Of a stretch of DNA of 51,795 nt, positions 10,101 to 29,962 are shown piece by piece (the stretch's first letter is position 1; every line of letters begins with the position of its first letter). This stretch comes from Ruminococcus sp. (GTDB lineage Bacteria; Bacillota; Clostridia; Oscillospirales; Acutalibacteraceae): contig JAFQNJ010000002.1 in assembly GCA_017395925.1 (NCBI GenBank), positions 1 to 51,795 of the forward strand. The letters are read 5' to 3'. The translations under genes were made by a program, and so were the position numbers. Under the pieces are notes generated by a model. The model did not search any database. It had not been told where the DNA came from and worked only from the letters and a program-made list of their open reading frames with translations.

Positions 10101-13100
10101 AGCTGAATCTGCCATACAAGACATACGGTATCAAGCCGGAGAGTATTGTGGCAACGGATCTGAAGGGCACTACCTACACCGGAGACACCATTACCATGGT
10201 AGTGGGAGAGACAGTGAACTTCACAATGGATTTCAGCCGACAGGGTGAGAACAAAGAGTATCCTGTCAATATGGTGAGATGGTCCATAGAATCTGATAAC
10301 CATTTGAAATATTACTTTGACATAGAAGTGCCGGAGAACTCAAATGTAGCCAAGTGGGGAAGTGCTATTTCGGAGCTTATCTCCCCCGGAGAGAAACTAT
10401 ACGTAGAATTCTTCAATAGATATTATGACAGCGATGCAGACGAACAGTATTGGAGTTTCGGTAAATTTGACACAGGCTACAAGTTTATTACAACAGAAAC
10501 AGATGAAACCATTACATATATGCCGGATATCGGTGTTGACAGCGAAGCTTCTGTTAATTACCGTCTGGCTACTACCGAGGACGGTGAGGTGGTGGATGAA
10601 TCCGAGGGAACTGTTGAGACTGTAGCCCATCCGATTCCTTGTATCGGACCTATAAGCCCCACTATTTCCATCAAGGGATTTTCTCCTATCATTAATATAA
10701 GTACACAGAAAAACGAGGAGACAGGCAACTACGATTGTTCGCTGAATATTGGTCTTCAGATGGGTACCTTCGCTAATATGTTGGACGAAGACCCGGCGTT
10801 TAAGGCGGCGGGTGACGCCAAAGCCAAGGCAAAGGCTGCCATTGACAATCTGTGTGATTATGCAGATTACTTTATGGATGATAATTCTCCTATTGCAGGA
10901 AAGGGTAATCTGCTTAATCTGAAAACATCTATAAATGTTTCATTCTCGCTGACATTCTGTTTCCAGCTTAAGTTCTACATCGACGGAGAAACCGCTGAGT
11001 GGTGCTTTACTTCAGGTATATTTGTTGCAGGTGCCGCGGCATCTCTCAGAGTAAGTGTTCCCTTCGTACTCTTATACGTTCCCTGCTTTGTGTTCCTTGA
11101 AGCAAATATCAATCCTCAGCTTTGTATCGGAATGTTCCCTGCTGCACCTGAAGGCAGCGATAACACTTCGGTTTATCTGACGTTGGATGAATTGGACGAA
11201 GCAGGAAAATCATGGTTCCAGGGACTCTCATCGTGGAAAATGAAAATCAGCATCGGTGCAGGTGTCGGATATGATGCCCTTGTATCCGTACAGTGTAAGC
11301 TTATCAATGATTTCCTTTTGGAATTTAACGATTACAGCAAGGGCTTTGGACTCTATTCTCTTCAGGGTGGAGTTGCCATTGAGTTTTTATTCTTCAGGGC
11401 TGACTGGACGGGTACGTTGGTGGATTGCGAGCTGTTCAACAGCACAGGCAAGCCCATTCCCGCTGGTGCCACTGCCGCCGAGGTTTCACAGCATTTATCT
11501 GAAAACTTATCCTCGGATATTGCGGCGGCTATGACGGAAAGCCTCAATTCAGAAGATATTATGAATACCTGTTCTCTGGGAGATATGGTGATTAATATTG
11601 CTGAAAACAGCGATGCTCTTAATTCGGATATCATAGGTTCCGCCCAGATGAAAAATGAAAAATCTGTGAAATCCACAAACACTATAATCGACCCTGAAAT
11701 CATTGAGATTTCCGACGGAGTGTACTTTATTTCTTCGGTAGTTTCCTTTATGGATGAAGGCAGACACAATCGTCTTTGTTACGTAATTTATGATTCCAAT
11801 ACAGGTATTGCCACCGAGCCTCGTGAGGTTATGAAGCAGATTCAGGAGGATACAGCACTTCGTACAGGTACGCTTGCAGAGGAAATTGAAAAAACAGACT
11901 ATGCAGTAAACCTTGCTGACTGCGGTGAAGATGTGCTTCTTACATGGAACAAGTACAGCACCGAGGACGAGGCAGAGGGTAATCTGGAACTTCTCAAATC
12001 TCTTTCTGTTGCAAGTGTATACTACAACAAGGAAAGCGGAAAATTCCATGATTACAATATCCTGACTCCTGAAGAAAACACCATATATGTAAAGCCCACC
12101 GTAACATATAACGAGGCTTCAGGACTTGCACAGGTGTTCTATCAGACACTTGATATTTCCGAGGTAACACTTGATACAACACTTGCCGAGCTTCAGGCAC
12201 TTCCTACAGAACTCAGAACTGCAAGTGCAAATCCCAAGCAGGGTGAATACCGTTGGGGTGAGTCGCATACTATCGGTTTTAATGAACACACACTTTCGTA
12301 TTATGATTCTGTTGAGTACAAGGACGGTGTGCTTCTGAGTTATGTTGCTTCTGACACAACGGGCTTTACTCTGGAGGGTGCTGACGGAGTGGATGAAAGT
12401 CAGGGCTTCAATACTGTCAATGCTATGTATCTCCAGCACTTCACATTGGATGAAAACGGTAACCTTGTTTCCACTGACCCTGTGCAGATAACAGATACCG
12501 ACTATGTTGTGGCAAATCCCGAGTTTGCACGGATTAAAACCGACCTGGTGGACAACACTCTGCTTTTCTACAAATCAAACGGCAGGTACGCATACCAGAA
12601 TATTGACACATTGCTTACAAATGCGGTTTATACCGACACCGACGGCAATGAAAAAATATCAAAGGATTATATGGACCCTGTTTATATATCCGATGAACCC
12701 GACTATACGGTTAACGACGACTTTTCCGTATTTTATAACGAGGACGGTACTATCTATGCACTCTTTACTGTTACCGAGGGTGCACAGCAGCAGATTTGGG
12801 CAAAACACTTCTACATGGACGGAGTAGATGTCGTTTCCGAAACTCCCGTAAGAGACAGCGAGGGTAATGCACTCTATGATGCAGATGGCAATATTATCAC
12901 CGAACCTCTTGCAGACCCCATAACACTTATCCGCGGAACATGGGGTACAAAGACCTACCTCACCGAGGGCGGTATCGGTGCAAACGGCGACGAGGGCTTC
13001 TTCAAGAGCAACTTTACAGCAGATGTCTTGGACAATGGAAATATCGTTGTAGTATTCAATTCTCAGGACTTTGAGTATACAGAGGAAGGTACCAACATTA

Positions 13101-14383
13101 TAAACAACAGTTTTGTTGTGGCAGAGTATGACCCCTCTGATAAATACGAACTTCCCGAAGCAGGCGACGCAGTGGAATTCTCTGATAATTATCCAACCGT
13201 GGGTGAAACGGTAAGCGTTAAGATGAGAGCCAAGAACGTTGGAGTTAAAACCGGCAGAGACCTTGCTTTCAATCTGTATGTTGACGGTGAGCTTTACAGC
13301 CGAGTACCGGTAGAGCTCTGGTTTGCAGACGAGACAAAGGTTGTGAGTGCTGATTACACTCTTCCCGATGGCAAGAACCCCGCGGAAGTTGACATTTACT
13401 ACACTGTAACCGACAATTCAGGTGCTGTGGTGCTCACATCCCAAAGCTACAGTTTCAGAAACGATGCCGACCTTGTTATGACCGGTGCACAGGTTTCTCC
13501 TCTTAAACTCATCAAAGAGGATGGCGACACCGCAAAGTTTATGCTCTCCGTAAAGGTCAAGAACAATGGTAATATGCCTTATGATGGCGGAGACGTTGTG
13601 AAATTTGTAAACTCCGACCTCATGGCACAGACCGCCGCCATTGACCCTGACATCAGTGCTTCAACACCTCTCTATGAGTCCTTCGGCAATACGCTGATAC
13701 CTGCTCTGGGAGTAGGTGAGGAGACTACACTTTACTTCATCTCTGAAGAGGTGCCTCACGAAGTATTTAAAAACAGTGCAGGCGGCAACAGTGCGAATCT
13801 GGAGTTTGTAATAGAAGAAGCAGAGGATGCCGATTGGGAAACCATCGGTGAGAACGATGAGTATTCTTTCATCGGTGTTTATAATCCCGGACTCACACAG
13901 ACTCCTGCTCCCAGAAGGGTGAAGTCCCTTGAGTCTTCGGATATTACAGTAGCACAGGGCGAAATTGCTATGGTAATTACAGAGGTAACCCCCGCATTGG
14001 CGACACCTTTTGCAAACCTTACCTACGAGACCTCCGATGCTTCCATAGCCACCGTCAACGAACACGGACTTGTGACGGGTGTGTCGGCAGGTACTGCGGT
14101 AATTACAGTCAAAGCAGGGGACGCCATGACCACTCTCAATGTGACAGTAGGCGAACACAGCGGGCTAAGAGGCGACTCTGACGGAAACGGTACTGTCAAC
14201 ATCAAGGATGCAACTCTGATTCAGAAGTACGTCGCAGACCTTGCGAAGCTGAATGTGATGCAGTACAAGTGTGCCGATGCAAATGCTGACGGCAGCACTA
14301 ACATCAAGGATGCAACCGAGATTCAGAAATATATAGCCGATATCAAAACGAAAGCTCCTATCGGTGAAGCGGTGACTGTATAA
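7109..14383 (+). CDS. Giant secreted modular protein with Calx-beta, CARDB, BIG2 and dockerin
   Basis: A 2424-residue exported protein. Residues 1-24 are a signal peptide (MKKCLK then a hydrophobic core). Residues about 80-110 and 237-330 look like Calx-beta repeats (for example the AGKNYDAV segment). The middle, about 350-2000, is beta-rich; I recognise no catalytic motif in it. It includes an unusually hydrophobic stretch near 1284-1340 and a region of VYY/DxDG-type strands. Residues about 2018-2200 contain two CARDB-like adhesion modules (ETVSVKMRAKNVG; FMLSVKVKNNGNM). About 2267-2350 is a BIG2 Ig-like domain with the usual SIATVNEHGLVTGVSAGTAVI pattern split across two strands. The last 70 residues are a type I dockerin with two calcium repeats (GDSDGNGTVNIKDAT and ADANADGSTNIKDAT). 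It is probably a structural or binding component tethered through a cohesin. It is monocistronic, with its own promoter and terminator. Confidence 0.85.
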   Translation: MKKCLKAILAFVLCVTLVVCSIPAFDANNEKFYMELADADALYEMYLNPNEQTVSEYPNGAMIIPVTAADLEMKNLYAVDILRQGGTADEVSITLKTIDLSAAYGTDYEIFETNRVVESPVKGEANPYYAIREHSFIPLITENETVYETENNSENTPQIREEVSELNDAYNKLMPTSSELVLHFAEGENAKRVFVQTYMNEVVTDDLQFMLTLSEPKGCSIGTNVASVFTIKEHREKPEAYIQITDEIISPKSEMAYVKVQRTGNLGGYTSFNVSTLSDTAKAGKNYDAVDINLSFSPGMTEIKVPVRVLDASDGTAFSVNLEDVQNATVTKSSATVEFAEDAKVQQEIALLGADSELVSTSAMTYRESGNRGQEFVNLKNFTKSKSIGSNGSVSTDASGLVMTYKNGASCKDHAISAVSKEKINFTGVDSITTQFNMYTGSCSWDYCAVYVGDSDKLSDGKANCSWMGEELDGFGLSWNMTEVGKDPNSRSFSLDSSVTNGNHNLYFVLQKGGFWGECGLRYYDNSTGHTVLNLTKYTVEMLAPDEVQVYKNGVLTSQKITSSNKFVDPGTMSDDDSHTKESVEMYRNETAAIVCELVDAYKDVATFKGIKFCNPSNKKECSELISLTSQQLTLSIDLLEKYSKFFDEKNKVCVIPVFELDEVEFDAVGGVDKVSGANFVVDESASKATATLDGKTIMEITWTPSTRSSGKYLVGDEIVFTYKEYDADKVWFPTYTYRGAETKDLLKVADATVYHTTVSNKMIKLGDEAVSIAFGMEVASSTTLTVTNPDMGDYSGKGDGFENYEGSAAIVSGYRLASGDVLRFEDKEVSNLITFTATPKAGYRAKWQYTNTATKETETYYGNAFFYTVQSALNAGDNNVTLTFEKVDSSARKSVIVTGNTFIQHGTIVSPPKGDTEVYDVAPNALVNIGAGSALSNGSGEFVLLEDPNAETPENLLLEISRDEIHQAAVYFNDQYYIATIDMSEYYDTAETSVEVKLNLPYKTYGIKPESIVATDLKGTTYTGDTITMVVGETVNFTMDFSRQGENKEYPVNMVRWSIESDNHLKYYFDIEVPENSNVAKWGSAISELISPGEKLYVEFFNRYYDSDADEQYWSFGKFDTGYKFITTETDETITYMPDIGVDSEASVNYRLATTEDGEVVDESEGTVETVAHPIPCIGPISPTISIKGFSPIINISTQKNEETGNYDCSLNIGLQMGTFANMLDEDPAFKAAGDAKAKAKAAIDNLCDYADYFMDDNSPIAGKGNLLNLKTSINVSFSLTFCFQLKFYIDGETAEWCFTSGIFVAGAAASLRVSVPFVLLYVPCFVFLEANINPQLCIGMFPAAPEGSDNTSVYLTLDELDEAGKSWFQGLSSWKMKISIGAGVGYDALVSVQCKLINDFLLEFNDYSKGFGLYSLQGGVAIEFLFFRADWTGTLVDCELFNSTGKPIPAGATAAEVSQHLSENLSSDIAAAMTESLNSEDIMNTCSLGDMVINIAENSDALNSDIIGSAQMKNEKSVKSTNTIIDPEIIEISDGVYFISSVVSFMDEGRHNRLCYVIYDSNTGIATEPREVMKQIQEDTALRTGTLAEEIEKTDYAVNLADCGEDVLLTWNKYSTEDEAEGNLELLKSLSVASVYYNKESGKFHDYNILTPEENTIYVKPTVTYNEASGLAQVFYQTLDISEVTLDTTLAELQALPTELRTASANPKQGEYRWGESHTIGFNEHTLSYYDSVEYKDGVLLSYVASDTTGFTLEGADGVDESQGFNTVNAMYLQHFTLDENGNLVSTDPVQITDTDYVVANPEFARIKTDLVDNTLLFYKSNGRYAYQNIDTLLTNAVYTDTDGNEKISKDYMDPVYISDEPDYTVNDDFSVFYNEDGTIYALFTVTEGAQQQIWAKHFYMDGVDVVSETPVRDSEGNALYDADGNIITEPLADPITLIRGTWGTKTYLTEGGIGANGDEGFFKSNFTADVLDNGNIVVVFNSQDFEYTEEGTNIINNSFVVAEYDPSDKYELPEAGDAVEFSDNYPTVGETVSVKMRAKNVGVKTGRDLAFNLYVDGELYSRVPVELWFADETKVVSADYTLPDGKNPAEVDIYYTVTDNSGAVVLTSQSYSFRNDADLVMTGAQVSPLKLIKEDGDTAKFMLSVKVKNNGNMPYDGGDVVKFVNSDLMAQTAAIDPDISASTPLYESFGNTLIPALGVGEETTLYFISEEVPHEVFKNSAGGNSANLEFVIEEAEDADWETIGENDEYSFIGVYNPGLTQTPAPRRVKSLESSDITVAQGEIAMVITEVTPALATPFANLTYETSDASIATVNEHGLVTGVSAGTAVITVKAGDAMTTLNVTVGEHSGLRGDSDGNGTVNIKDATLIQKYVADLAKLNVMQYKCADANADGSTNIKDATEIQKYIADIKTKAPIGEAVTV

Positions 14384-15232: not shown

Positions 15233-16681
15233 TTAATACAATGCATCGTCGCTACTGTCGTAGTCTGCAAAATCAAACCAGAAGCACACGCCTCTTGTGG
15301 TATTGTTAAAGCCGCAACGAGTGTGTTCCATCAGGGCGATTTCCTTGACAATGTATAATCCCAGACCGCTGCTCTTTTTGCCTTCGGGGGAAGTGGTAAA
15401 GGTTTCTGTCCAGATTTTGTCCTTCATATCATCGGGTATCTGTCTGCCAATATTCTCAACCGATAAACGTATTTTCCCTGCACACTCCTTGAGGGATACG
15501 ATAATTGCGGATTTTTCTGCGGCATTCTGCACAGCATTGGCAAGGTAGTTTCTGAATACAAACTCCATATATTCCTTGATGGTTGTCAGTCTGAGATTCG
15601 GTGTGATATCCCTTACCAACTCCAGATCACAGGACTTTATGTATGCGCTGTTGTTGTCACACAGCTTTTCGATAGCATCGCTTGCATCAAAACTCTGGGC
15701 TTCTTTGTATGCTATGCGTCGCTCGTCTACGGTCATCCTGAGAACTTCGCTTATCATATGGCTCATTTTGCTTATCTCTTCCATGGCTGACTCGTAATAA
15801 TAATCTTTTTTCGCCTGTTCCTCGCAAGTGCGTATCATTTCAACCTGACTGGAGATAACCGCCAAGGGAGTTTTAAGGTCGTGAGTGATATTGCGAAGCA
15901 ATGTACGGCGTAACTGCTCATGCTCCATCAGATATCGGTGGTCTTCACGCAGAACGAAATTATAGTTTTCCAGATTGTTGATGTTTTCCTGAATGGTGTC
16001 TGCCATTTTGTTGACGCTGTGTGCAAGGTCGCCGATTTCATTATTATAGATTTTTCCCTGGTAACGGACAGAGAGGTTATTTTCCGAGATGTCCTTTGCT
16101 ACCTTGGTTACCTCCCTTACGGATTTGACCGAAGGAGAAATTGCAAGGAAGAGAATTACCGAGCAGATGATAATGTAGCCAAGCACTACATACCCCAGTA
16201 TCTGATTGGAAAAATCAAAGATGTCATCTACACCGTTTAGGTTGTTTTTGATATTGATGTAATACGTCTTGCCGTCAATAGAAAAACGAGTGTAGAGTCT
16301 GACAGCCGACTCGTCATCCAGCTTGTAGAATTGCGGCTTTGAGGTCTCCAGAAAGCGATCCATTTTGTCGCCAAAGAGCCTTTGAATGAATTTCTTGTTG
16401 TTTCCCAGTTCAAAGGAAGTGAAAACGGGTTCAAAATCTTCATCGAATACATATACTCGATATGATACTCCCGAGTTGTCAAAAAATTCTTTGAGAGAGT
16501 TGCTGTCAAAGGGCTCAACCGCTTTCAGCTTTTCAGAGAATTCAGAAACATTACGGGTTTCCTGATTTATGTACATTTTAGGCTGCAGATAAAAGTATAT
16601 CGGCGCCATAATGCCTGCGATAAGAGTGATTGAAACAACAATCACGATGATAAGTTTAAAGGTAAGTTTATTTTTCATCAT
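15233..16681 (-). CDS. Sensor histidine kinase (OmpR-type partner)
   Basis: Membrane histidine kinase of 482 residues. An N-terminal membrane segment (about 8-30) is followed by an extracytoplasmic sensor region (about 31-160) and a second membrane segment (about 162-184). Then come a HAMP linker, the dimerisation/phosphoacceptor helix NITHDLKTPLAV with His267, and a C-terminal ATPase domain with the N-box region and the G-box SSGLGLYIVKE. It overlaps the upstream response-regulator gene by 14 bases, a sign of translational coupling. The ligand is unknown. The operon is divergent from the 17563-25207 gene group, which is the obvious candidate target. Confidence 0.92.
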   Translation of the reverse strand: MMKNKLTFKLIIVIVVSITLIAGIMAPIYFYLQPKMYINQETRNVSEFSEKLKAVEPFDSNSLKEFFDNSGVSYRVYVFDEDFEPVFTSFELGNNKKFIQRLFGDKMDRFLETSKPQFYKLDDESAVRLYTRFSIDGKTYYINIKNNLNGVDDIFDFSNQILGYVVLGYIIICSVILFLAISPSVKSVREVTKVAKDISENNLSVRYQGKIYNNEIGDLAHSVNKMADTIQENINNLENYNFVLREDHRYLMEHEQLRRTLLRNITHDLKTPLAVISSQVEMIRTCEEQAKKDYYYESAMEEISKMSHMISEVLRMTVDERRIAYKEAQSFDASDAIEKLCDNNSAYIKSCDLELVRDITPNLRLTTIKEYMEFVFRNYLANAVQNAAEKSAIIVSLKECAGKIRLSVENIGRQIPDDMKDKIWTETFTTSPEGKKSSGLGLYIVKEIALMEHTRCGFNNTTRGVCFWFDFADYDSSDDALY

Positions 16682-17360
16682 TAACCTCGAATTTGTAGCC
16701 TATTCCATAGACGGATACAATATATCCGCTGAAGTCTCCCAGTTTTTTTCTCAGTTGCTTTACTATGGTGTCGACGGTGCGCAGATCTCCGAAGTAGCTG
16801 TCGCCCCATACGCGGTCAAGAATAGTATCACGGCTCATAACGACCCGCTCGTTGTTCATAAAAAAGAGAAGAAGGTCGTATTCCCGGGGAGTGGTGTTTA
16901 TCTCCGTCTCCTCGAGATAAACTTTACGTTCAATAGTGTTAAGACGCAGAGCACCTTTTGAAATATACGGATTGTGCTTGTCACCACCACCGCAACGAAG
17001 CAGGAGCGCACTGATATGCTCTTTCAGAACACTTAAGAGAAATGGTTTGGTTATGTAGTTGTCGGCTCCCAACCGAAACCCGCTGAGCTGGTCTCTTTCG
17101 GATTCTCTTGCGGACAGAATTATGACAGGGACATCGGATGTTTCTCTTATTCTTTTCAAAACGTCAAAGCCGTCAATGTCGGGCAGCATTCCGTCCAGAA
17201 GAATAATGTCAAAGGGCGATTCATTTTCGAAGCTGTGAATAGCAGAGCTGCCGTCGGCACACGCGGTCACAGAAAAGCTGTTCATTCCAAGATAGTCCTG
17301 TATTGTGTTGCGGAGCTTGTTGTCGTCTTCTACCAGAAGAATTTTGGTACAGTTACTCAT
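16668..17360 (-). CDS. OmpR/PhoB-type response regulator
   Basis: DNA-binding response regulator of 230 residues. The receiver domain has the acidic pair Glu11/Asp12/Asp13, phosphoacceptor Asp56 in DIILLDGMLPD, the conserved Ser of IILSA, and Lys in ITKPF. The C-terminal winged-helix domain shows the REYDLLLFFMNN helix and the VDTIVKQLRKKLG recognition helix typical of the OmpR family. It is the first gene of a two-gene minus-strand operon with the histidine kinase. A perfect -10 (TATAAT, 17393-17398) preceded by TGA, an extended -10, precedes it. Confidence 0.95.
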   Translation of the reverse strand: MSNCTKILLVEDDNKLRNTIQDYLGMNSFSVTACADGSSAIHSFENESPFDIILLDGMLPDIDGFDVLKRIRETSDVPVIILSARESERDQLSGFRLGADNYITKPFLLSVLKEHISALLLRCGGGDKHNPYISKGALRLNTIERKVYLEETEINTTPREYDLLLFFMNNERVVMSRDTILDRVWGDSYFGDLRTVDTIVKQLRKKLGDFSGYIVSVYGIGYKFEVNDEK

Positions 17361-17562: not shown

Positions 17563-18486
17563 ATGAGCGATAAAATATCAGGCGAGATATCAACAAAATC
17601 AAAGGGCGGACTTATCAGCAAGCGCTTGGTGCTGATACTGATTCCCTTGTGTCTTATTTTACTTGTGGCAGGGGGGATAGGCATATCATACATTCTGCCG
17701 AAAAATATTTCGGGGGCATGGGAGCTGGTGGTGAATCCTGAGATAGCGGTGGCAACTGCCGATGAGATTCCCGAAGGGGACAGAGCCTACTATGTCTTCG
17801 ACAAGCCTGACCGATACGGCAGAGGAGAATATCGCACCTTCTATCAGGGCGGTGTTGAGTATTACAAGTACGAGCTTATGGAAGAAAACAAGGTGAAGAA
17901 GATAAACCTTGGCTCGGAGGATATGGAGTACAGTATCACAGGCTCAAAGCTTCTCGGCAACGCAAAGCTTACAATTATCTATCCCGGATATACCAATGAG
18001 TCTACCGGTGCGGTCTATGAAGCAGAGGAGTATATCTTTGAACAGTCAAAGGATCCTAAATATGAAAAGATGTCCTATGAGAGCTTTGAAACAGACAGCA
18101 GTATTATAGGAGAAAAGTACACAAGCAAACAGCGGACTCTTGCCTATTACTACTATGATATTCCTTATACCCAGACCGTGGAGTTTACCGATGACGGGGT
18201 AATGGTGATACGCTACGAGAGCAAGGATCTGGCTCTTGACAGGTATATGTACTATGCATATACCGCAAAGAACGGTGAGCTTACCTTCAGCCTTGTAACC
18301 GATATAGAGACAAAGTATACGGTGGGTTATGAGCTTGATGATGAAAGCAACCTGAAATTCACAGATGATAAAACTGCAAGTTCCATATTTGCAGATGCAT
18401 TTTTCGGTGACTTCACATTCTATACTCAGGAGAATGTCCCCGAGCCCACTGCGTCTTCCGCAGATGAGATGTATTTAGTCGAATAG
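17563..18486 (+). CDS. Membrane-anchored protein of unknown function
   Basis: A 307-residue protein with a short basic cytoplasmic N-terminus, one membrane segment (about residues 22-44, RLVLILIPLCLILLVAGG region) and an extracellular domain rich in Tyr and charged residues. The start of that domain (SGAWELV) and repeated short strands suggest a lipocalin-like or other beta-sandwich fold, but I do not recognise a family. The ATG at 17563 is preceded by an AGAGGA-type site. It is the first plus-strand gene after the divergent two-component operon and lies 47 bases before the UGSC-like gene, with only a short 7-bp hairpin (18480-18501) between, so it may belong to that unit. Candidates for its role are a sensor or anchor for the exported proteins downstream. 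Confidence 0.75.
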   Translation: MSDKISGEISTKSKGGLISKRLVLILIPLCLILLVAGGIGISYILPKNISGAWELVVNPEIAVATADEIPEGDRAYYVFDKPDRYGRGEYRTFYQGGVEYYKYELMEENKVKKINLGSEDMEYSITGSKLLGNAKLTIIYPGYTNESTGAVYEAEEYIFEQSKDPKYEKMSYESFETDSSIIGEKYTSKQRTLAYYYYDIPYTQTVEFTDDGVMVIRYESKDLALDRYMYYAYTAKNGELTFSLVTDIETKYTVGYELDDESNLKFTDDKTASSIFADAFFGDFTFYTQENVPEPTASSADEMYLVE

Positions 18487-18533: not shown

Positions 18534-20549
18534 ATGAAATCAAACATCTTAAAGCGTGCATTATCATTACTGCTTGCTTTGATATGTATCATTGGTACAT
18601 TTACCGTTGGTATGTCATCAGCTTCTGCAGTTGATACCGATGTTGCACAGACTGCGGCGGCATCCAATGAGGCTCCCACCAAAAACGAATACCAAATTGT
18701 GTCTCCTGTTCCCATTGGTTCTTCCATTGAGAATATCACACAGCCTCAGAGACTTAATGGCACAGCGGCTCTGCGGGGTGCAACTATTGCACTTGTAGGC
18801 GGAAGCTTCTCTGCATCTGTAACACACAGAGTTCTTGCGGATATGCTTATAGCAGAATACGGTTGCAGAATCTACTTTATGGAAGAAATCGGTAAGGGCG
18901 GTACATTCAATCCCCTTAACCCCAGCGATAAATCCAAGGAGTTCCAGCAGAAGCTCAAGGATTACGGTGTTGATGCCGTAATTTCCGGTAACTGCGGTTG
19001 CGGTATCTGTACCGTAAAAGAAACCGGTAACGCACTTGCCGCAGAGTATATCGGTATTCCTGCAGTTGTTGTAGGTGCCGAGACCTTTATTCCTCAGATT
19101 GAGTCAACCGGCTTTAACCGTGGTGTTCCTGTTGTGAGAACTGCCGCATATCCCGGCGCATTTGCCAATGACGAAACTGCTGTTCAGCAGCAGAAGGCAA
19201 GAGACATCCTGTACGATCAGGTTGTAACAGGACTTACTACTCAGATTACACAGGAAGAAATCGACAGAATTGCGGGCACAGCAGGAAGTGCACAGTATGA
19301 TGATGTAATCTTTACAGGTTCATACCAGCGTGTTCAGGAATTCTACGAAGTAAACGAAATGAGTGACGGCCTTCCCGTTGTTCCTCCCACACAGGAGAAG
19401 ATAGAGTATTACCTTCAGTTTACAAATATGGCGGCTACCGATATCGTCAACGAAAAGGACGGCGAGATTATCGGTGTAAAGCCTGCTTATAAAACCATCA
19501 CTGCATATCAGGTAGCGGCAAACTGCATTATGGCAGGTTGTCCTGCGGAGTATATGCCTATTTGTATGGCTATTACCCGTTGCTTTGCAAACGGTAATTT
19601 CTACAAATCACTTGATAGTACACACGGATGGACTCCCTATGTACTTGTAAGCGGTCCCCTCGCCCGTCAGTCGGGTATTTCCTACGAGGACGGTATGATT
19701 AACGAAGAGGCAAATAAGCTCATAGGCAGATTCATTTCTCTTGCAATGCTCAACCTTGCAGGCTACAAGATTAAAGAAAACCGAATGGGTACATTTGGTT
19801 ATATGCAGCCCTTCTGCTTTGCAGAGGACGAGCAGACAACCGTGGATATCGGTTGGAATCCCTACCACGTTAACAATGGTTTTGACCTCAATGACAGCGT
19901 TGTTACCTGCGGCTCCACTCTTACATGGGGTAACCCCGTAACCGTTGGTACCACAGACCCCGAGAAAGCTATGCAGCTCCTTGCATGGGATTGTACCGAA
20001 AAACAGCAGAACGGTCTTGGTAACACAAACCCTGTTGAGTCCCGTACAATCTGGCTTACAAAGGATGCGGCTACTGTTATTGCAGAAGGCTATGGTACCA
20101 GAGATACTCTGGAGGATGCCCTTATCGCCACCGCACGCAGACCTCTCTGGATGCGTACTTACGCTCACTACTGGGCAAATACCGGTTCAAAAATTCATAT
20201 GAACACAACCTTTGATGAGCATTATCAGGATATCAAGGATGGTGCATCAACCGAAAACGTAGCCGCAGATAAGGTTGCATCCACAGCCGTTCCCCAGTGG
20301 CTGCAGGGCGTTGTTCCCTTTGATACCATCGACACAACACAGACCATCAACGCAAACACAGATGCCCTCAAGAGACAGAAGGTTGTCACCACGGGCTTTG
20401 TTGTAACAGGCGGCGATGTGTCCAGCCAGTTCCAGGTAATGCCCGGCGGCGACTGCTGTTCCTACGAAGCTTATCTGCCTTCCACCACAACATGGAACAG
20501 ACTGATGGATGAACTGGGATATGCCAGATTGTCAACTTTCTACCTCTAA
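18534..20549 (+). CDS. Secreted UGSC-like/DGLPVVPPT two-domain protein
   Basis: An exported 671-residue protein. Residues 1-32 are a signal peptide ending ASA. Residues about 78-235 resemble the UGSC (seleno)protein family: a start like GATIALVGGSFSA, then DAVISGNCGCGICTV with Cys154, Cys156 and Cys159, followed by a helix and the GIPAVVVGAE strand. Where family members have Sec-Gly-Ser-Cys, this protein reads Cys-Gly-Ile-Cys (156-159). Residues about 262-671 form a second domain starting with DGLPVVPPT (278-286) and including ITAYQVAANCIMAGC, SGPLARQSGI, FAEDEQTTVDIGWNPYHV, ARRPLWMRTYAHY and FQVMPGGDCC. I recall this domain as a genomic neighbour of UGSC proteins, so the gene seems to be a fusion of the pair. 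No enzymatic reaction is known to me; the Cys pair suggests redox or metal chemistry. Its downstream paralog at 20618 keeps only the second domain. Confidence 0.75.
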   Translation: MKSNILKRALSLLLALICIIGTFTVGMSSASAVDTDVAQTAAASNEAPTKNEYQIVSPVPIGSSIENITQPQRLNGTAALRGATIALVGGSFSASVTHRVLADMLIAEYGCRIYFMEEIGKGGTFNPLNPSDKSKEFQQKLKDYGVDAVISGNCGCGICTVKETGNALAAEYIGIPAVVVGAETFIPQIESTGFNRGVPVVRTAAYPGAFANDETAVQQQKARDILYDQVVTGLTTQITQEEIDRIAGTAGSAQYDDVIFTGSYQRVQEFYEVNEMSDGLPVVPPTQEKIEYYLQFTNMAATDIVNEKDGEIIGVKPAYKTITAYQVAANCIMAGCPAEYMPICMAITRCFANGNFYKSLDSTHGWTPYVLVSGPLARQSGISYEDGMINEEANKLIGRFISLAMLNLAGYKIKENRMGTFGYMQPFCFAEDEQTTVDIGWNPYHVNNGFDLNDSVVTCGSTLTWGNPVTVGTTDPEKAMQLLAWDCTEKQQNGLGNTNPVESRTIWLTKDAATVIAEGYGTRDTLEDALIATARRPLWMRTYAHYWANTGSKIHMNTTFDEHYQDIKDGASTENVAADKVASTAVPQWLQGVVPFDTIDTTQTINANTDALKRQKVVTTGFVVTGGDVSSQFQVMPGGDCCSYEAYLPSTTTWNRLMDELGYARLSTFYL

Positions 20550-20617
20550 ACTAAGTATTAACTGTTGTACTTATTAACTATTTTAGCTTACCATTAATAA
20601 AACGAAAGGATGGTACT

Positions 20618-23600
20618 ATGAAGTCAAAAGTTTTAAGACGTGCTATTGCGTTAATGCTTGGTTTGATGATTGCTGTCAGCATTATGTCAGTCCCTATGTC
20701 AGTAAGCGCAAGATACACGGATGAAGATATAGCGAACAAGATTTCATACGACTCCCTCAACTGTCGCGAGGACGACTGCGACTGTTTGGAGCCCGAAAAT
20801 AACAAATTTGCGGTTGTTTCCCCTGTAGGCGGAAACAACACATACAATGACTATGTTTTAGTCGATACCTATCAGAACGTACAGAAGTACTTTGATGAGC
20901 AGGGTTGGACAGACGGTCTGCCCATTGTTCCTCCCACATGGATCAAAGCAGAAAAGTTCATGAGATATACACCTTACACAGATAATCAGGTGGTGGCAAC
21001 TGTGAACGGCAGAAGCGTTACTGCATATCAGGTAGCAGTCAATGCTATAATGTCAGGTTGTTCTGCTGAATATTTGCCTGTGTGTATCGCTTTTGTAGAA
21101 GCATTGGGTGACACAAACTATCTCAACTCCTTAAGATCAGGCGAGCTTACACCTATGATGTATGTCAATGGTCCCATTGCCCGCCAGCTTGGTATTGACA
21201 ATGCTCAGGGTATGACAACAGAGGAGTGTAATATCGCTATTGCACGTTTTATGGAGCTTGCACTCATTAACCTTGCAGGTATAGAGCGTACTAATGCCTT
21301 TGGTAATGTTCAGCCTCTGGTTTTCTCCGAGGACGAGCAGACAGCCATCAATATCGGTTGGGACCCCCACCACGTTGAAGAAGGCTATGACCTTAACGAC
21401 AATGTTATTACAGCTACATCTTTCTCTATGTGGGGTAATAACGTTACTCCTGCTACAGACCTTCCTGAAGAGATTATGAAGGTTATTGCATGGGATATCA
21501 CCGAGAAAAACCTTGGCGGTCTTGGCGGAGCATCCATAGAGGATAATGCTGACACAAAGCGAACTATCCTCATTACTCCCTCTGTTGCACAGGCACTGGC
21601 TAAAAAGTACCAGAGCAAGGATGCCCTTGAAAATGCACTTGTAGAGAATGCCCGCAGACCCCTCTGGATGCGTACTTATGCTTATTATTACGCAAACACA
21701 GGCGGCGCACTGTCAAAGTCTTTCGCCGATGTTTATGACGAACTGAAAGAGAGCGCATCTGAGGATGCAAAGCTCACTGCTTCTCCCGCTTGGATGAACG
21801 GTATTACATACGCCAATATCGATACAGTTGCGACTATGACCAAAGGCAATACCGATATCGTTATTCAGGGCGATGCATCCCGTAACAAAACTCAGGTAAT
21901 GCCCGGAGGTGTCGCTGTCTCCAAGGAGATTCAGCTTGATACAAACTGGGATGACCTCCTTGCCAGCATGGTAATCAGCATTGTTTACCAGCCCCTCAGT
22001 GCACATTATATTACTGCGGTTGATAACTCTGTTAAACTTCCTGCCGGCGATACAATTCCTACAGTATTACAGGTAACAAAGCAGACAACATATCGTATTG
22101 CGGCTTCTGCTAACTATGCTAACGGCACAGGAAAGATTTATTATGATTCTTCCACATCAACACTCTACTACTGGGATGGCTCTGCTACTCAGTCGGTAGT
22201 GCTTGATACTGATACTTACAGCGACTTTATTGCATTTGTAACTGCATTGGGTGTCAACAGCTCCTTTACACTTAACAGAAACAATGCGGTAACTGCCGTA
22301 TATATTCGTTTCTCTTCCAACGCATCACTTCCTGATAAAAATACGGTAGAGTTAAGCAGTGATGCTTTCGGTACTCTTACACCGACCATTGCGGCTAATG
22401 TAACATCAGGCTCAAACGGTAATGCCTCCATCGATGGCTCCACCATCACTATGAACGATACTGTAACAACATTTACAGCTGACCTCGGCGGTGATATCAC
22501 CAAGGGTGACACAACCGACTCAGGCTTTGTCACAGTAAGCGGCACAACTGTTACTGTTGACCCCACAGCACCTGCAGGTGCAACTGCTGTTATCGGTGCA
22601 TCGGATGGTAGCGGTACATACAGAACAATGACTATTGTCAACGGTGGCGACGGCACATACAAGATTACCTATAACACCGCCAACACATTGACCCTCACCT
22701 CCTCCAGCTATTACCTGAAGGGTACCTTCAACAACTGGGAAGCAACAGACGCTTTTGTAAAGACCGACAATGAGGATATCCTCACAGTTGTTAAGGAGAT
22801 TCCTGCAGGTACATATACATTCAAGGTAAACAATACAGGTACCGACCAATGGTACGGTAACGGTGGTACCATCACCGACACCGCTTATCGCTGGACTATG
22901 GATTCGAGCTCTGACTGTACTTTCAAGTCTACAGGCGGCACATACGAGTTCAAGTATGAGATTTCCACCAACAAGCTTTCCGTATACGCCGCACAGGATG
23001 GCGTAGTGGAAACTCCTCCCACAACAAAGACTGTCTATGTGGGTGTAATCGAATATATCACAGATTTTGTTCCCACACTTCACTACTGGAATAATTCCAC
23101 AGGTCTTGCAGGAGATGCAACCCTCACCGCAACAGGCGAAACCGAAATGTACTCCGTAGGCTCTTCCTACTGGAGTGGCGCAAAACAGAAGTTCAACATC
23201 TATAAGACTACAATTCCTGCCGAAGCCACCAAGATGAAGACCTTTAAGGCAAGCGGAAATACCAACTGGGCGGCAGAAGAGGTAACTTATGATGGAGAGG
23301 ATACAATTATCCTTCTCTTCGAGTGGAGCGGCACATATCACAATCAGAAGAACACATACACCGAGCCGGTGCCTGTAGTGACCTATACCGTAACCTTCAA
23401 GAACTGGGATGGTACAGTGCTTTCCACCCAGACCGTAGAAGAAGGTAAGGCTGCAACTGCTCCCTCTACTCCTACAAAAGCCTCAACAGCACAGTATGTA
23501 TATACTTTCTCAGGTTGGGATGAGGATTTCTCCGCTGTTACATCTGATCTGACAGTAACTGCACAGTTTACAGAGAGTGCTCGTAAGTACACAGTAAAAT

Positions 23601-25207
23601 TTGTAAGCAACGGCACAGTAATTAATACCCAGCAGGTAGAGTACGGCAAATCGGCAACAGCTCCTGCTGATCCCACAAGACCTGCGGATGCACAGTATAC
23701 CTACACCTTCAAGTCATGGGACAAGGAATTCACAAACATTGTTGCGGATACAACTGTTACTGCACAGTATACAGCAACCTTAAACAAGTATTCTGTTGTG
23801 TTCCTTAACTGGGACGGCACAGAGATTGATAGCCAGACCGTTGAGTATGGCGAATCGGCAACAGCTCCCGCTGACCCCACAAGACCTGCCGATGCAAACT
23901 ACACTTACGTGTTCAGCGGTTGGGATAATGATTTCTCAAAAATTGTAGGCGACACAGTTGTTGTGGCAGAGTTTGATGAAATCCCCTTCATCACAGTATA
24001 CTTCACAAATACACTGGGTTGGGACAAGGTTTATTGCAACTCTGAAAACACCTATCCCGGCACAGAGATGACCTACTGTGAGACCAATACCTACGGCGTA
24101 GATATTTATTCCGTTAAGCTTCCCGGAAATGCTCTCAGCATTTCCTTTAACGGTGGAGAAGGAAGCGAACAGACTGTTAACATCACCACCGGTATCACAG
24201 ATGGTGCAGGCTTCTATCCCACAGAAAAATCAGGTAGCCGCTGGCTTGTGAACACCTATGTTCACGGCAGCGAGGAGATTCCTCCCGTAGGCGGCTTTGA
24301 GCTGAAGCTTGATGTGGATGCTCCCACTTCTGTTGAAGTAGGACAGCAGGTAACCATAAATGCAACAGCAATCTCTGAAACAACAGTTACCTACGAGCTC
24401 TTCACAAAAGCAGGAGAAAAGGTTGCGACCAATACTCACGGTGTGTTTGAAATCGAAACCACAGAGCAGCAGCTCGGCGACAGTTTCACATACTACATTG
24501 TTGCAAGCACAGTTGTAAACGAAGAGACCTATACCGCAACATCTGAAGACATCACATATACAGTCAGGTCAGCAGGTGATACATGGGCTGTTACCGTTTA
24601 CTTCAAGAGCTCCAGCTCTCTGGGTTACAGACCTACCATCACAACCACAGGAGCTATAGAGGACCTTAACCAGTTCGAAATGGTAAAGGACAGCTTCCTC
24701 GGTACCAACAGCACCGAAACAGGCTTCTACTATTGGTACAAGGCAGACATAGTTGTTTCCAAAGCATCTCCCGATGTAACTGTAAATCTTGTTTCACGTC
24801 GCTATGCTATGGAAGGAACAACAACAATTACCATTTCTGATAAGAAGACCAAGGTTTACCTGGGTATCGACAACCTCAATGCAGGTTCAGAGGTAGTTGA
24901 CCTTTCAGACCGCCCTGTTGCAGAGCGTAACTGGTATTCAAGTGCTGTGCATATGGTATACAACGAGACCTTTGACGGTCCTCTTGATCTTGCAGGTGTT
25001 AGTGCAAATGTAAACCTCAGACAGGTTGGTGACTCCAACGGCGACGGCAAGGTTAATATCAAGGACGCAACTGCTATTCAGAAGCATCTGGCGGAAATTA
25101 TTGTTATGGACAATGTCTCTGCAAATATCTCCGACACAGACAGCGATTATAAACTTACCATCAGAGATGCAACAGCTATCCAGAAGAAGATTGCAGGACT
25201 GATGTAA
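20618..25207 (+). CDS. Secreted DGLPIVPPT-domain protein with starch-binding-like modules, B-repeats and dockerin
   Basis: A 1529-residue exported protein paralogous to the one before it. A signal peptide (1-31) is followed by a short Cys-rich piece (NCREDDCDC). Residues about 75-460 are the DGLPIVPPT domain, sharing ITAYQ/VTAYQV, ARQLGI, EDEQTAINIGWDPHHV, ARRPLWMRTYAYY and QVMPGG with its neighbour but lacking the UGSC-like part. Then come a Thr/Ser-rich region, a module near 697-790 (YYLKGTFNNWEATDAF) like those in starch-debranching enzymes, another beta module (about 805-920), and three Listeria/Bacteroides B-repeats (about 921-1124). A module at about 1125-1205 resembles starch-binding CBM26 (VYFTNTLGWDKVY, YPGTEMTYC). 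After two further beta domains the dockerin occupies about 1470-1529. It is probably an amylosome-type component holding the DGLPIVPPT domain at starch or glycan. A strong terminator follows. Confidence 0.8.
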   Translation: MKSKVLRRAIALMLGLMIAVSIMSVPMSVSARYTDEDIANKISYDSLNCREDDCDCLEPENNKFAVVSPVGGNNTYNDYVLVDTYQNVQKYFDEQGWTDGLPIVPPTWIKAEKFMRYTPYTDNQVVATVNGRSVTAYQVAVNAIMSGCSAEYLPVCIAFVEALGDTNYLNSLRSGELTPMMYVNGPIARQLGIDNAQGMTTEECNIAIARFMELALINLAGIERTNAFGNVQPLVFSEDEQTAINIGWDPHHVEEGYDLNDNVITATSFSMWGNNVTPATDLPEEIMKVIAWDITEKNLGGLGGASIEDNADTKRTILITPSVAQALAKKYQSKDALENALVENARRPLWMRTYAYYYANTGGALSKSFADVYDELKESASEDAKLTASPAWMNGITYANIDTVATMTKGNTDIVIQGDASRNKTQVMPGGVAVSKEIQLDTNWDDLLASMVISIVYQPLSAHYITAVDNSVKLPAGDTIPTVLQVTKQTTYRIAASANYANGTGKIYYDSSTSTLYYWDGSATQSVVLDTDTYSDFIAFVTALGVNSSFTLNRNNAVTAVYIRFSSNASLPDKNTVELSSDAFGTLTPTIAANVTSGSNGNASIDGSTITMNDTVTTFTADLGGDITKGDTTDSGFVTVSGTTVTVDPTAPAGATAVIGASDGSGTYRTMTIVNGGDGTYKITYNTANTLTLTSSSYYLKGTFNNWEATDAFVKTDNEDILTVVKEIPAGTYTFKVNNTGTDQWYGNGGTITDTAYRWTMDSSSDCTFKSTGGTYEFKYEISTNKLSVYAAQDGVVETPPTTKTVYVGVIEYITDFVPTLHYWNNSTGLAGDATLTATGETEMYSVGSSYWSGAKQKFNIYKTTIPAEATKMKTFKASGNTNWAAEEVTYDGEDTIILLFEWSGTYHNQKNTYTEPVPVVTYTVTFKNWDGTVLSTQTVEEGKAATAPSTPTKASTAQYVYTFSGWDEDFSAVTSDLTVTAQFTESARKYTVKFVSNGTVINTQQVEYGKSATAPADPTRPADAQYTYTFKSWDKEFTNIVADTTVTAQYTATLNKYSVVFLNWDGTEIDSQTVEYGESATAPADPTRPADANYTYVFSGWDNDFSKIVGDTVVVAEFDEIPFITVYFTNTLGWDKVYCNSENTYPGTEMTYCETNTYGVDIYSVKLPGNALSISFNGGEGSEQTVNITTGITDGAGFYPTEKSGSRWLVNTYVHGSEEIPPVGGFELKLDVDAPTSVEVGQQVTINATAISETTVTYELFTKAGEKVATNTHGVFEIETTEQQLGDSFTYYIVASTVVNEETYTATSEDITYTVRSAGDTWAVTVYFKSSSSLGYRPTITTTGAIEDLNQFEMVKDSFLGTNSTETGFYYWYKADIVVSKASPDVTVNLVSRRYAMEGTTTITISDKKTKVYLGIDNLNAGSEVVDLSDRPVAERNWYSSAVHMVYNETFDGPLDLAGVSANVNLRQVGDSNGDGKVNIKDATAIQKHLAEIIVMDNVSANISDTDSDYKLTIRDATAIQKKIAGLM

Positions 25208-25329: not shown

Positions 25330-26394
25330 TTATTCATTATCAAGTGCTTTTGCAATTTGCAGAAGCTGTTTTCTGGAGGATACTCCCAATTTGGAGTAGA
25401 TGTTTTTGTTGTGGTATTTCAAGGTGTTTTCCGTAATGTTGAGCTTTGCCATAATATCCTTGGTGCCCTTTCCTTCGAGGTAAAGATTGTAAACGGCTTT
25501 TTCGGTAGGGGTCAGGGTATGGATATTTTCCTTGAAATACTCGCATTGCTTGGCAAAAATCTCGGGGTCTTCCGCCGGCTTTGGAAGTGCCGTCTTCGGC
25601 GCAGGCTCGGCTTGGCTGATACTCGCCGAAATTGAGTTGAGGATGCTGTTATCCTGGATGATAAGGCTTATGCTCAAAAGGAAAATTTCGCTTACAATGT
25701 ATGAAACCGACAGAAATTCAAAATCGAATTTAATAAGCTGTTCCATAAGCCAGACACCGATATTGACAACAACTGCACCCAGAATGACTACTGCGTGGAC
25801 GCTGGACTTTATACGTGAGGTTACCCTTGCGTAAACTATCACTCCTATCATTGCCGAAAAATGGAGTATCAGATAGTAAAGATAAATGCTGTGCAAAGGT
25901 CCGTAAACCTTTTCAAGGACGGATACACCATTGACGGTAATCAGCGAAACTTCTTTGTAGTAAATATCAAGGTACCCGGGGCTTGCGGCAATTAAGAATA
26001 CCACAGCGCTTATGCCGAGTATGGATGCCAGTACCCATTTGTTCAGTTTGATTTTGCAGATGTGGAGTATGGTCATCAGCATTGACACAGGCAGGAATAC
26101 CGAGCCTAAATATGCTATGCGGTTAGAAAGCAGTGCTTCATTCAGAGTGCCTGACAGGGACAGGCACAGATAGCCGATGTTCACCACCATTACCGATGAG
26201 AACAAAACTAAAAGCCAAGGCTCTTTTTTCTTTATAAGAAATTGATAGCCTAAAAGCAGTATCAGCGAAAGTGAAGCTGTAACAATATATATTGAGGACA
26301 TATTTGCGGATTTGCTTCCCACATAGCTACAGCCAGAAAAAAGAATAAGCATGGGAAGTATTAATCCCGAAATGCTTAATTGTTTCTTTGTCAT
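25330..26394 (-). CDS. Membrane-bound LuxR-type transcriptional regulator
   Basis: A 354-residue protein with about eight hydrophobic segments in the first 250 residues, resembling the 7TM N-terminal sensor module of some histidine kinases. After a linker, residues about 290-350 are a LuxR/GerE helix-turn-helix: LTPTEKAVYNLYLEGKGTK, then DIMAKLNITENTLKYHNKNIYSKLGVSSR, with the typical spacing. It should sense a membrane or extracellular cue and control transcription directly from the membrane, as in the 7TM-LuxR proteins common in Clostridia. The first hydrophobic segment ends in FSGC, like a lipobox, but a multi-pass protein makes lipidation doubtful. The ribosome binding site (AAGGAGCTCC) fits the ATG. 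The target is unknown; it lies between two exported-protein clusters. Confidence 0.85.
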   Translation of the reverse strand: MTKKQLSISGLILPMLILFSGCSYVGSKSANMSSIYIVTASLSLILLLGYQFLIKKKEPWLLVLFSSVMVVNIGYLCLSLSGTLNEALLSNRIAYLGSVFLPVSMLMTILHICKIKLNKWVLASILGISAVVFLIAASPGYLDIYYKEVSLITVNGVSVLEKVYGPLHSIYLYYLILHFSAMIGVIVYARVTSRIKSSVHAVVILGAVVVNIGVWLMEQLIKFDFEFLSVSYIVSEIFLLSISLIIQDNSILNSISASISQAEPAPKTALPKPAEDPEIFAKQCEYFKENIHTLTPTEKAVYNLYLEGKGTKDIMAKLNITENTLKYHNKNIYSKLGVSSRKQLLQIAKALDNE

Positions 26395-28174: not shown

Positions 28175-29962
28175 ATGAAAAAACTAACAACCAAGACCAT
28201 ATGTATGGTGCTTTCGCTTCTTATGCTTTTGACTCTGGTGCCTTTTTCGGCATATGCCGCAAACAGCGAGGGTGCAACTATTATCAAAGAGGTTAGCATT
28301 TCCGGTGTTGCCACTCCTTATGCAGGTGAAACACCAAATTACGAAAGTAAGCTTGGCTTATCTGATGCATACACCTACGACGACCAGCTTGCCGACGACG
28401 TCGATGTTGTTGAGGGCAAGTGGTGGTATGACGAAACATCGAAGTCGGTTGTAAATCCCGATGATGCCTTTGCAGAGGGCCATGTTTATACTTTCGCTGT
28501 GCTTCTTGTTGCCAAAGAAGGCTATGAATTCCGGGTTGATAACTACAACACACCCTTTATCAGAGCTTATGTCAACGGTGCAGAGGCTACGGTACAAGAA
28601 GACCTCACAGGCAAAAAGAATACTATGATTAAGTATACCTTCGAGCCTTGTGAATATAACTACGAGGTTGCCACGGTTGAGGTTAATGTGGCAGAGCCTG
28701 TAGCAGGGGGATACCCCACCTATGACGTGGAGATTCTGACTGGCGGCGTTTCCAAGGATGACCCCGAATCCCCTTACTATATTGAGGGTGTCACCTGGTA
28801 TGATTGCAAGAATCAGACCTTCCTCGACCCCTCCCATACATTCAAAGAGGATGGTGTTTACGAGGTAAACATTATGCTTACTACCATTGGCGACTATTAC
28901 TTTGCAACAGAAAACGATAAAGCTGATGTCAAGGTAATAATCAATGGCAAGGAGGGAGAGGCAGGCACCGCAGGTAAAAATGACAAATACCACATCCACG
29001 TATCCTGTGTGGTATATGGAGATGTCAGACAAGAGGTCTCCTACGTTGAGGTAACCGATGTCACAGCACCTGTGGTAGGTGCAACTCCCGACTTTGATGT
29101 AAAAGCCGAAGATACCTTCTACATAAACGGTGTTTTCTGGACAGATATTACAGACTCCAAAAATCCCGTTGCCATGAAAGAGACAGATGCTTTCATAGCT
29201 GACCACAAGTATGAGCTTCAGGTGTGGATAAGGGCAAAGGATGGCTACAAGTTCTCGACCGATGAAGACGATTGTGTGGACATTGCGGCACTTTTAGGCG
29301 GACTTCAGGCAGATGTAGCCATTCCCGGTTCAGAGATTGCCGCAGAGCTTTCCGTTATATACACTCCTTTAAAGGGTAGTGTGGTTTCCTTTGTTGAGGT
29401 TATTGAGGTTAACGCTCCTGTAGCAGGCGAAACTCCCGATTATGATGCCTTCTGTGTAACCCGCGGATGCAATGTGTCAAAGGTTGAGTGGTATGATGTA
29501 ACCGAGGGAAGAGGCACTTTGATGAATGAGAGCGACACTTTCGAGGCGGGCGGAAAATACGAGGTAGTAGTCAGGGTTGAAGCCGAAGGCAACTATGTGT
29601 TTGAACTTGACGATATGGGTATCAATATTGCTGAAGGTACCGTAAACGGTGAAAAAGCTGTTGCATACAGCTCTTACGATGCTTCCTTCATTGAGTTAGG
29701 TTTTGAATTTGCAGAGCTTGAGATTGACCCTGTTCCTTCGCTCTATATGGGTGATGCTAATGCAGACGGCAAGGTTAATATCAAGGATGCCACTGCCATA
29801 CAGAAACACATCGCTTCTCTCATTATCCTCTCTGAAACAGGTTATGTGCTTGCAGATGTTGACGAAAACGGCAATGTGAATATCAAGGATGCCACAGCTA
29901 TCCAGAAACATGTGGCAGGTATGGACACAGGTTACAATATAGAAACAGACTATATTGTTTAA
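28175..29962 (+). CDS. Secreted dockerin protein with four beta repeats
   Basis: A 595-residue exported protein. A signal peptide (1-29, ending AYA) is followed by four copies of a module of about 100-130 residues. Each starts with a strand ending in V and then P(V/Y)(A/V)G-x-(T/Y)P-(D/N/T)(F/Y)(D/E), for example APVVGATPDFD and APVAGETPDYD. The third copy is nearly the same as the module in the 31611 protein (FYINGVFWTD, YKFSTDED). The C-terminus (about 525-582) is a type I dockerin, GDANADGKVNIKDATAIQKH and DVDENGNVNIKDATAIQKH. No catalytic motif is visible. It probably serves as a binding or spacer component of a dockerin-cohesin complex. It has a good AGGAGG site and is part of the plus-strand run beginning at 26722. 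Confidence 0.85.
   Translation: MKKLTTKTICMVLSLLMLLTLVPFSAYAANSEGATIIKEVSISGVATPYAGETPNYESKLGLSDAYTYDDQLADDVDVVEGKWWYDETSKSVVNPDDAFAEGHVYTFAVLLVAKEGYEFRVDNYNTPFIRAYVNGAEATVQEDLTGKKNTMIKYTFEPCEYNYEVATVEVNVAEPVAGGYPTYDVEILTGGVSKDDPESPYYIEGVTWYDCKNQTFLDPSHTFKEDGVYEVNIMLTTIGDYYFATENDKADVKVIINGKEGEAGTAGKNDKYHIHVSCVVYGDVRQEVSYVEVTDVTAPVVGATPDFDVKAEDTFYINGVFWTDITDSKNPVAMKETDAFIADHKYELQVWIRAKDGYKFSTDEDDCVDIAALLGGLQADVAIPGSEIAAELSVIYTPLKGSVVSFVEVIEVNAPVAGETPDYDAFCVTRGCNVSKVEWYDVTEGRGTLMNESDTFEAGGKYEVVVRVEAEGNYVFELDDMGINIAEGTVNGEKAVAYSSYDASFIELGFEFAELEIDPVPSLYMGDANADGKVNIKDATAIQKHIASLIILSETGYVLADVDENGNVNIKDATAIQKHVAGMDTGYNIETDYIV

Follow-up and report, generated by a model that had tools for sequence, protein, structure and literature searches.

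A predicted exported, cysteine-only UGSC-DGLP protein and its dockerin-bearing, UGSC-less twin in a ruminococcal genome

What does a relative of a selenium-linked protein family do when it carries an export signal and stands next to a paralog that bears a dockerin? The question is raised by two adjacent genes in a draft genome of Ruminococcus sp. (GCA_017395925.1; 1,536,211 bases, 75% complete), on a stretch of 51,795 nucleotides of contig JAFQNJ010000002.1 that was analysed as a whole and is called the window. The first gene encodes p1, in which a UGSC domain is fused to a domain that we label DGLP after its motif DGLPVVPPT, and the second encodes p2, which has a DGLP domain and a dockerin. 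An earlier note, made from the sequence of the window, had singled out the two as exported paralogs of a secreted, cellulosome-linked UGSC-like system; its observation of the pair is sound and is confirmed here, and its interpretation is partly supported. We read p1 as a putative extracytoplasmic thiol enzyme of the GrdB/PrdB superfamily, belonging to the UGSC branch and using cysteine only, and give this reading a probability of roughly 0.4. The exported, Cys-only, motif-changed branch to which p1 belongs, with its docked UGSC-less twin, is new; no description of it was found among open-licence papers.

That p1 is a member of the UGSC family is very probable. The Pfam model PF24696 matches residues 75-235 (E 1.1e-10, 42.4 bits, cut-off 25), so that the UGSC-like domain which the earlier note had proposed is recovered by profile search; the NCBIfam equivalog model NF041046 gives 27.8 bits, under its cut-off of 125. 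The Cys-Gly-Ile-Cys said to replace Sec-Gly-Ser-Cys (Sec, selenocysteine) is present as C156-G-I-C159, with Cys and not TGA coded at the first position. In an alignment of 51 fusions, Sec being counted as Cys, C156 and C159 are the only columns that are Cys/Sec in 51/51. p1 is predicted to be exported. For the DGLP domain no Pfam model passes its cut-off, and sequence searches of the PDB with p1 and two family alignments gave a best E value of 0.32 and no match for DGLP.

The UGSC domain shows a distant active-site similarity to GrdB, GrdF, GrdH and PrdB of the glycine, sarcosine, betaine and D-proline reductases. At E <=0.1, PF24696 and NF041046 each match 51/51 aligned fusions, PrdB matches 36/51 and TIGR01918 15/51. 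A profile built from the 51 UGSC domains finds 8/8 fetched grdB products at E values of 2e-10 to 1.8e-6 when TGA is read through; when TGA is taken as a stop, the broken pieces do no better than 0.0002. The grdB TGA sits in a U-G-T-C motif in all eight, and in the five aligned sequences it falls on C156. The portion of PMC3091704 dealing with these enzymes places Sec at residue 350 of 436 in C. sticklandii GrdB, and sets out a proposal for D-proline reductase in which the PrdB selenolate attacks the alpha carbon of the substrate on the PrdA pyruvoyl group and a PrdB Cys then resolves (PMC3091704).

The sequences themselves show the family, the export signal, Cys at the Sec position, a single exported branch with a changed motif, the descent and constraint of p2, and its dockerin; redox chemistry, substrate, electron source and a cooperation of p1 with p2 we infer. 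Within one p1 chain the DGLP domain would hold the substrate, a role that it would take by analogy with the pyruvoyl partner PrdA. The thiolate of Cys156, at the Sec position of GrdB and of the non-exported UGSC proteins, would attack the substrate, and Cys159 would resolve the adduct as a disulfide, the substrate bond being reductively cleaved or the substrate reduced. Small thiols, or a TlpA/CcdA pair in certain hosts, would reduce the disulfide again on the extracytoplasmic side. p2 would have arisen later, as a copy that dropped the thiol domain and acquired a dockerin, and would most likely bind the same or a similar substrate or partner p1 on a cellulosome-like complex. The GrdB/PrdB-type reductases are not known to be exported. 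They work with the pyruvoyl partners GrdE/PrdA, whereas p1 has a DGLP domain instead.

How common is the fusion? A scan of species genomes with the DGLP alignment gave at least 591 stretches, at least 579 of them encoding relatives. The best 80 named loci were kept (loci bear L numbers), and because these are the nearest to the DGLP domain of the window, less similar relatives are undersampled. With TGA read through, UGSC and DGLP lie in one frame in 76 of the best 80 loci, the exceptions being L051, L062, L067 and L094, the last with a weak UGSC match. The fusion, which the earlier note had pointed out in p1, is therefore the usual form; UGSC-DGLP proteins are a known kind that has yet to be characterised. 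In 2008 the Global Ocean Sampling survey already yielded fusions of UGSC with a domain called "Unknown_1" (PMC2398784, in the section on such fusions). They resemble p1 in joining UGSC to another conserved domain, and differ from it as selenoproteins from aquatic samples, with neither export nor a dockerin mentioned for them (PMC2398784, same section). Unknown_1 may be DGLP.

Selenium probably marks the non-exported relatives. When TGA is taken as a stop, 32 long fusions are left, of which 30 are exported and two are not. In the non-exported fusions the motif starts with TGA in 50/52 and with Cys in 2/52, a count over rows in which the motif could be aligned (L051 and L067 lack a UGSC match, and that of L094 is below threshold). 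By this TGA the non-exported relatives look like selenoproteins and, with signal peptides in 0/43, they fit the earlier description of UGSC proteins as cytoplasmic and selenium-linked. DGLP had also been described as the usual neighbour of UGSC, in agreement with haloarchaeal plasmids on which DGLP-type genes immediately adjoin a gene that is annotated as "UGSC family (seleno)protein", flanking it on both sides in two plasmids and on one side in a third. Around five annotated plasmid loci of non-exported relatives, from 24 records with a match, we find genes for CoA transferases, a CoA ester lyase, acyl-CoA dehydrogenases, an amidase and TRAP/TTT receptors, which point to small organic acids or amides, that is to small-molecule catabolism, rather than to proteins. 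The gene order DGLP-UGSC-DGLP is seen at L157:7983-10645 and L158:6648-9347, both on haloarchaeal plasmids. DGLP domains outnumber UGSC domains in 7/47 non-exported loci (one a short fragment) and in 6/8 loci of the genus of the window (one cut at the contig start).

The exported fusions form a branch of their own. The exported and non-exported sets were drawn first by hit rank and N-termini and then tested by a tree; in the tree of the 51 fusions, a long branch, supported at 100/100, separates the 31 exported members from all the rest. Among fusions with a nearly complete UGSC match, a simple signal-peptide rule marks 26/30 exported proteins and 0/43 others. Two of the misses, L036 and L044, have frames that begin at the contig start, L054 has an N-terminus that is hydrophobic by eye, and L040 (4703-7051) has a signal-like start upstream of about 150 additional N-terminal residues that no Pfam model matches. 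The exported records are named to seven phyla, Bacillota, Spirochaetota (Treponema, including T. zioleckii), Bacteroidota, Lentisphaerota, Verrucomicrobiota, Kiritimatiellota and Planctomycetota, the last two by one contig each of a metagenome-assembled genome (MAG); phylum names are those of the records, and single-contig MAG placements are fallible. The mixed order of phyla in the branch suggests transfer. A ruminant gut site is named in 7/33 exported record titles, and the others include further anaerobic settings; some other exported records bear codes that we take to be those of rumen surveys. Of the extracellular, docked setting that had been put forward as special, export holds, but across records named to seven phyla and not in this organism in particular, and the UGSC-bearing p1 is itself undocked, as no Pfam dockerin matches it.

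In this branch more than selenium has changed. The first motif position is Cys in 31/31 exported members (30 fusions and the UGSC frame of L062), and all 31 carry Lys at motif position +6, Glu at +7 and Gly at +9. In the non-exported rows, +6 is Ala in 50/55 and +9 is Arg in 51/55 or His in 4/55, one contig-edge row being omitted (55 of 56). The non-exported Cys forms L103 and L112 keep the Arg, so that a replacement of Sec by Cys does not by itself explain why the exported branch lacks it; the Lys-Glu-x-Gly change comes on top of that replacement. This changed motif is, we infer, the strongest sign of a shift in chemistry or substrate alongside export. Thus p1 shares with the UGSC family of PF24696/NF041046 the domain, the U/C-G-x-C position and the DGLP partner, and departs from it in having Cys for Sec, in export, in Lys/Glu/Gly at +6/+7/+9 and in scoring under the NF041046 cut-off. 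In the Porphyromonadaceae MAG locus L062:158-2258, exported UGSC and DGLP are encoded on one stretch but not in the same frame, so that either the gene is broken or the contig is in error.

Might the exported proteins bind rather than catalyse? As scavengers they would hold soft metals or thiols at the CGxC pair without turnover. Many exported members do have extra cysteines (17/31 at column 154, 19/31 at column 436), and in the Treponema locus L041 a heavy-metal P-type ATPase (7482-10025) lies directly downstream. Yet no further Cys column is fixed in the exported set, the ATPase was seen at one locus only, and DGLP is strongly constrained; we regard scavenging as very improbable.

What then is p2? 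Residues 67-465 of p2 and 246-671 of p1 are 40% identical (E 9e-94), the signal regions are similar too, and p2 has a signal peptide read from its sequence, so the two open reading frames are, as the earlier note had it, neighbouring exported paralogs. A Pfam scan finds no UGSC domain in p2. Near-invariant DGLP residues are retained at 28/33 positions, the DGLP motif among them, C336 is Cys in 7/7 p2 rows, and the ratio of non-synonymous to synonymous substitution (dN/dS) of the domain is 0.03-0.12 in 15 pairs, indicating purifying selection. In a tree of 76 DGLP domains, with every third non-exported fusion taken (19 rows), p2 stands beside p1 within the exported branch; the Shimodaira-Hasegawa-like approximate likelihood ratio test gives 88 for the fork of p1 and p2 and 99 for the set that also holds Treponema. 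At its N-terminus p2 has a Cys-rich stretch followed by VVSPVG, as in the exported UGSC-bearing proteins. Given this position and the shared N-terminal stretch, p2 is best read as a duplicate that arose within the exported branch and lost its UGSC domain; a kinship with the free-standing DGLP genes of non-exported loci was rejected on the ground of its place beside p1.

The scaffold described for p2 is borne out in one part. The C-terminal dockerin passes its cut-off (26.5 bits vs 22.9), whereas the starch-binding module does not in the window (CBM26 17.2 bits, cut-off 28.1); the p2 ortholog at L034 passes it with 30.6. Three stretches of p2 match Flg_new above cut-off (51 vs 27). A p2-type second copy adjoins p1 in 12/13 UGSC-bearing genomes of the genus and in genome G004, and a dockerin passes the cut-off in 6/8 p2-type proteins scanned, that of the window included, with none in L037 and L040. 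Across the genome of the window there are 50 dockerin matches, 43 of which pass the cut-off, and 6 cohesin matches, of which 5 pass; a single contig bears five of these 6 cohesin matches. p2 thus has the signal peptide and dockerin by which cellulosomal proteins are recognised, and is predicted to bind cohesin. Like the cellulosomal dockerin proteins of ruminococci it is marked for export, ends in a type I dockerin and comes from a genome with cohesins, and unlike them it carries DGLP in place of any Pfam-known catalytic module.

Cellulosomes are known mainly for hydrolases, lyases and esterases. A bolder reading would make the exported branch a new class of extracytoplasmic reductases, GrdB/PrdB-type thiol enzymes acting on plant-released substrates, which spread between anaerobe phyla once their active site had been remodelled a single time, with Cys for Sec, Gly for Arg and a new Lys-Glu, and were brought onto the cellulosome by a thiol-less docked twin in one ruminococcal genus. 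We think this quite unlikely as a whole; if true, it would add a redox step to cellulosomes. The branch is free of selenium, can be expressed in ordinary E. coli without any machinery for selenocysteine, is partly docked and would meet its substrate outside the cell, so that the function of the whole UGSC family becomes easier to test, and p1 and p2, a natural pair with and without the thiol domain, lend themselves to comparison.

Within the genus the pair is kept, though not everywhere. p1 was searched in 148 genomes (G numbers), that of the window included, and matches occur in 23. Twelve genomes hold a complete UGSC-bearing p1 and in G011 p1 is cut by the contig end; G004 has a p1 without UGSC, G036 a DGLP match only, and eight genomes the signal region only. 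The CGIC motif is identical in all 13 genomes that keep UGSC. In a 300-genome sample of the family, UGSC passes the cut-off in 2 genomes, both of this genus, with one short match below cut-off elsewhere. SelB passes its cut-off in 0/12 genomes of the genus, that of the window among them; each of the 12 gives weaker matches which, by their length and score, we judge to be other translation GTPases, and the Cys form of p1 fits a genus without Sec insertion. The nearest named relatives among the best 80 loci belong to MAGs recorded under Clostridia, Clostridiales or Ruminococcus, with one from a sheep rectum closest of all, and the host bacterium is probably from a ruminant gut.

Which of the two domains does the work? 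DGLP could be catalytic and UGSC could only assist it, as a thiol switch or in binding or stabilising, and p2 would then be the full, docked enzyme. UGSC is absent from p2 and from the p1 of G004 (L015), both of which keep DGLP; in the latter about residues 92-254 are missing, the frame continues into DGLP and the signal peptide is kept, although an assembly cause is possible since the draft is in about 210 contigs. The purifying selection and the residues retained in p2 agree with such a division of labour, as do the free-standing DGLP genes and the loci that hold more DGLP than UGSC domains. However, within p1 the two domains are equally constrained, with dN/dS of 0.055-0.109 for UGSC and 0.053-0.118 for DGLP (a simple Nei-Gojobori count over 15 pairs from 6 genomes, several with dS >1), and the TGA retained in 50/52 non-exported fusions is typical of a catalytic residue. 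We hold a purely assisting UGSC to be doubtful.

Several observations weigh against p1 as a thiol enzyme of the GrdB/PrdB superfamily. Its scores are far below the curated GrdB/PrdB cut-offs (TIGR01918 28.6 vs 65.45, TIGR04483 20.7 vs 300), and Cys156 and Cys159 are assigned to a putative active site by alignment. In the eight grdB loci, each covering a portion of the operon, the DGLP profile has no match, and nothing points to a pyruvoyl-type partner; a relationship of DGLP to a product of the grd operon was rejected, the UGSC profile having found 8/8 grdB there. The p1 of G004, which keeps DGLP, would mean that UGSC is dispensable. As to electrons, a search of all called open reading frames of the 80 loci finds TlpA or CcdA nearby in 0/8 loci of the genus and in only 3/25 exported loci outside it. 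Among 11 genomes of the genus with p1 that were searched, 5 have CcdA: no match to CcdA or AhpC-TSA occurs in G038 (completeness 100) or G077 (90), G056 (100), G025, G030 and G071 have no CcdA, the draft of the window shows neither at its 75% completeness, and G016, G044, G073 and G055 have both on contigs other than that of p1. An obligatory CcdA/TlpA supply in the genus was rejected in view of this patchiness and the lack of such neighbours.

The three loci outside the genus (L044, L046 and L047), where a TlpA-like redoxin and/or CcdA lies directly downstream, would also suit an exported protein disulfide reductase or isomerase acting on secreted proteins, with DGLP only binding clients, and so would export and the CxxC motif. 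The 47 non-exported loci have none of these TlpA/CcdA types. Against such a role, the domain is of the GrdB/PrdB/UGSC kind and no thioredoxin-family model matches at E <=0.1, the five non-exported plasmid loci point to small-molecule catabolism, and p1 is patchy (13/148 related genomes, one of 44 genera), which is odd for a general folding helper. A disulfide reductase is, in our estimate, unlikely.

The coordinates of p1, p2 and their closest neighbours are collected in Table 1.

Table 1. Features of the p1-p2 locus, in positions of the window.
Feature	Coordinates	Strand	Basis
p1, UGSC-DGLP fusion, 671 amino acids	18534..20549	+	open reading frame; Pfam UGSC match; kept in genus
p1 predicted signal peptide, about residues 1-32, boundary approximate	18534..18629	+	Lys/Arg n-region and hydrophobic core read from sequence
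UGSC domain of p1, residues 75-235	18756..19238	+	PF24696; sub-threshold GrdB/PrdB family matches
C156-G-I-C159, at the Sec-Gly-Ser-Cys position	18999..19010	+	Cys/Sec in 51/51; under GrdB TGA/Sec
DGLP domain of p1, residues 256-671	19299..20546	+	alignments
DGLPVVPPT motif of p1	19365-19391	+	sequence
p2, UGSC-less DGLP paralog with export signal and dockerin, 1529 amino acids	20618..25207	+	open reading frame; Pfam; comparison with p1
DGLP domain of p2, residues 67-465	20816..22012	+	40% identity to p1; 28/33 residues; dN/dS
DGLPIVPPT motif of p2	20912-20938	+	sequence
Possible CBM26-like starch-binding module of p2	23996..24187	+	17.2 bits, below cut-off
Type I dockerin of p2, residues 1471-1525	25028..25192	+	Pfam match
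307-residue protein immediately upstream of p1, with a single hydrophobic segment at the N-terminus	17563..18486	+	no Pfam match
Divergent histidine kinase and response regulator, possible regulators	15233..17360	-	Pfam

Among the neighbours, relatives of the 307-residue protein (cluster c11) occur in 4 of the best 80 named loci, each of them from this genus. Members of the genus, but not relatives beyond it, keep the two-component pair next to p1. A two-component partner across phyla was considered (clusters c7/c8 at 6 loci) and rejected outside the genus, since the sensor region of the window matches L034 and L038 well and not L039, L041, L042 and L047. Neighbours at exported loci were scanned with Pfam as 20 hand-chosen proteins. 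Just downstream of p2, 25330-26394 on the minus strand encodes a one-protein membrane regulator with a HisKA_7TM sensor region and a GerE (LuxR-type DNA-binding) domain. Further along, a VTC-domain protein (35779-36522, 147.9 bits) is followed by closely spaced genes, near which lies a zf-HC2 anti-sigma-like protein (40411-40992). Four more genes of the window bear dockerins, at 7109-14383, 28175-29962, 31611-33626 and 39135-39773 (matches at 14171, 29750, 33414 and 39252), and one of the four products is 2424 amino acids long; with p2 included, five of the 50 dockerin hits of the genome lie on this 52-kb contig.

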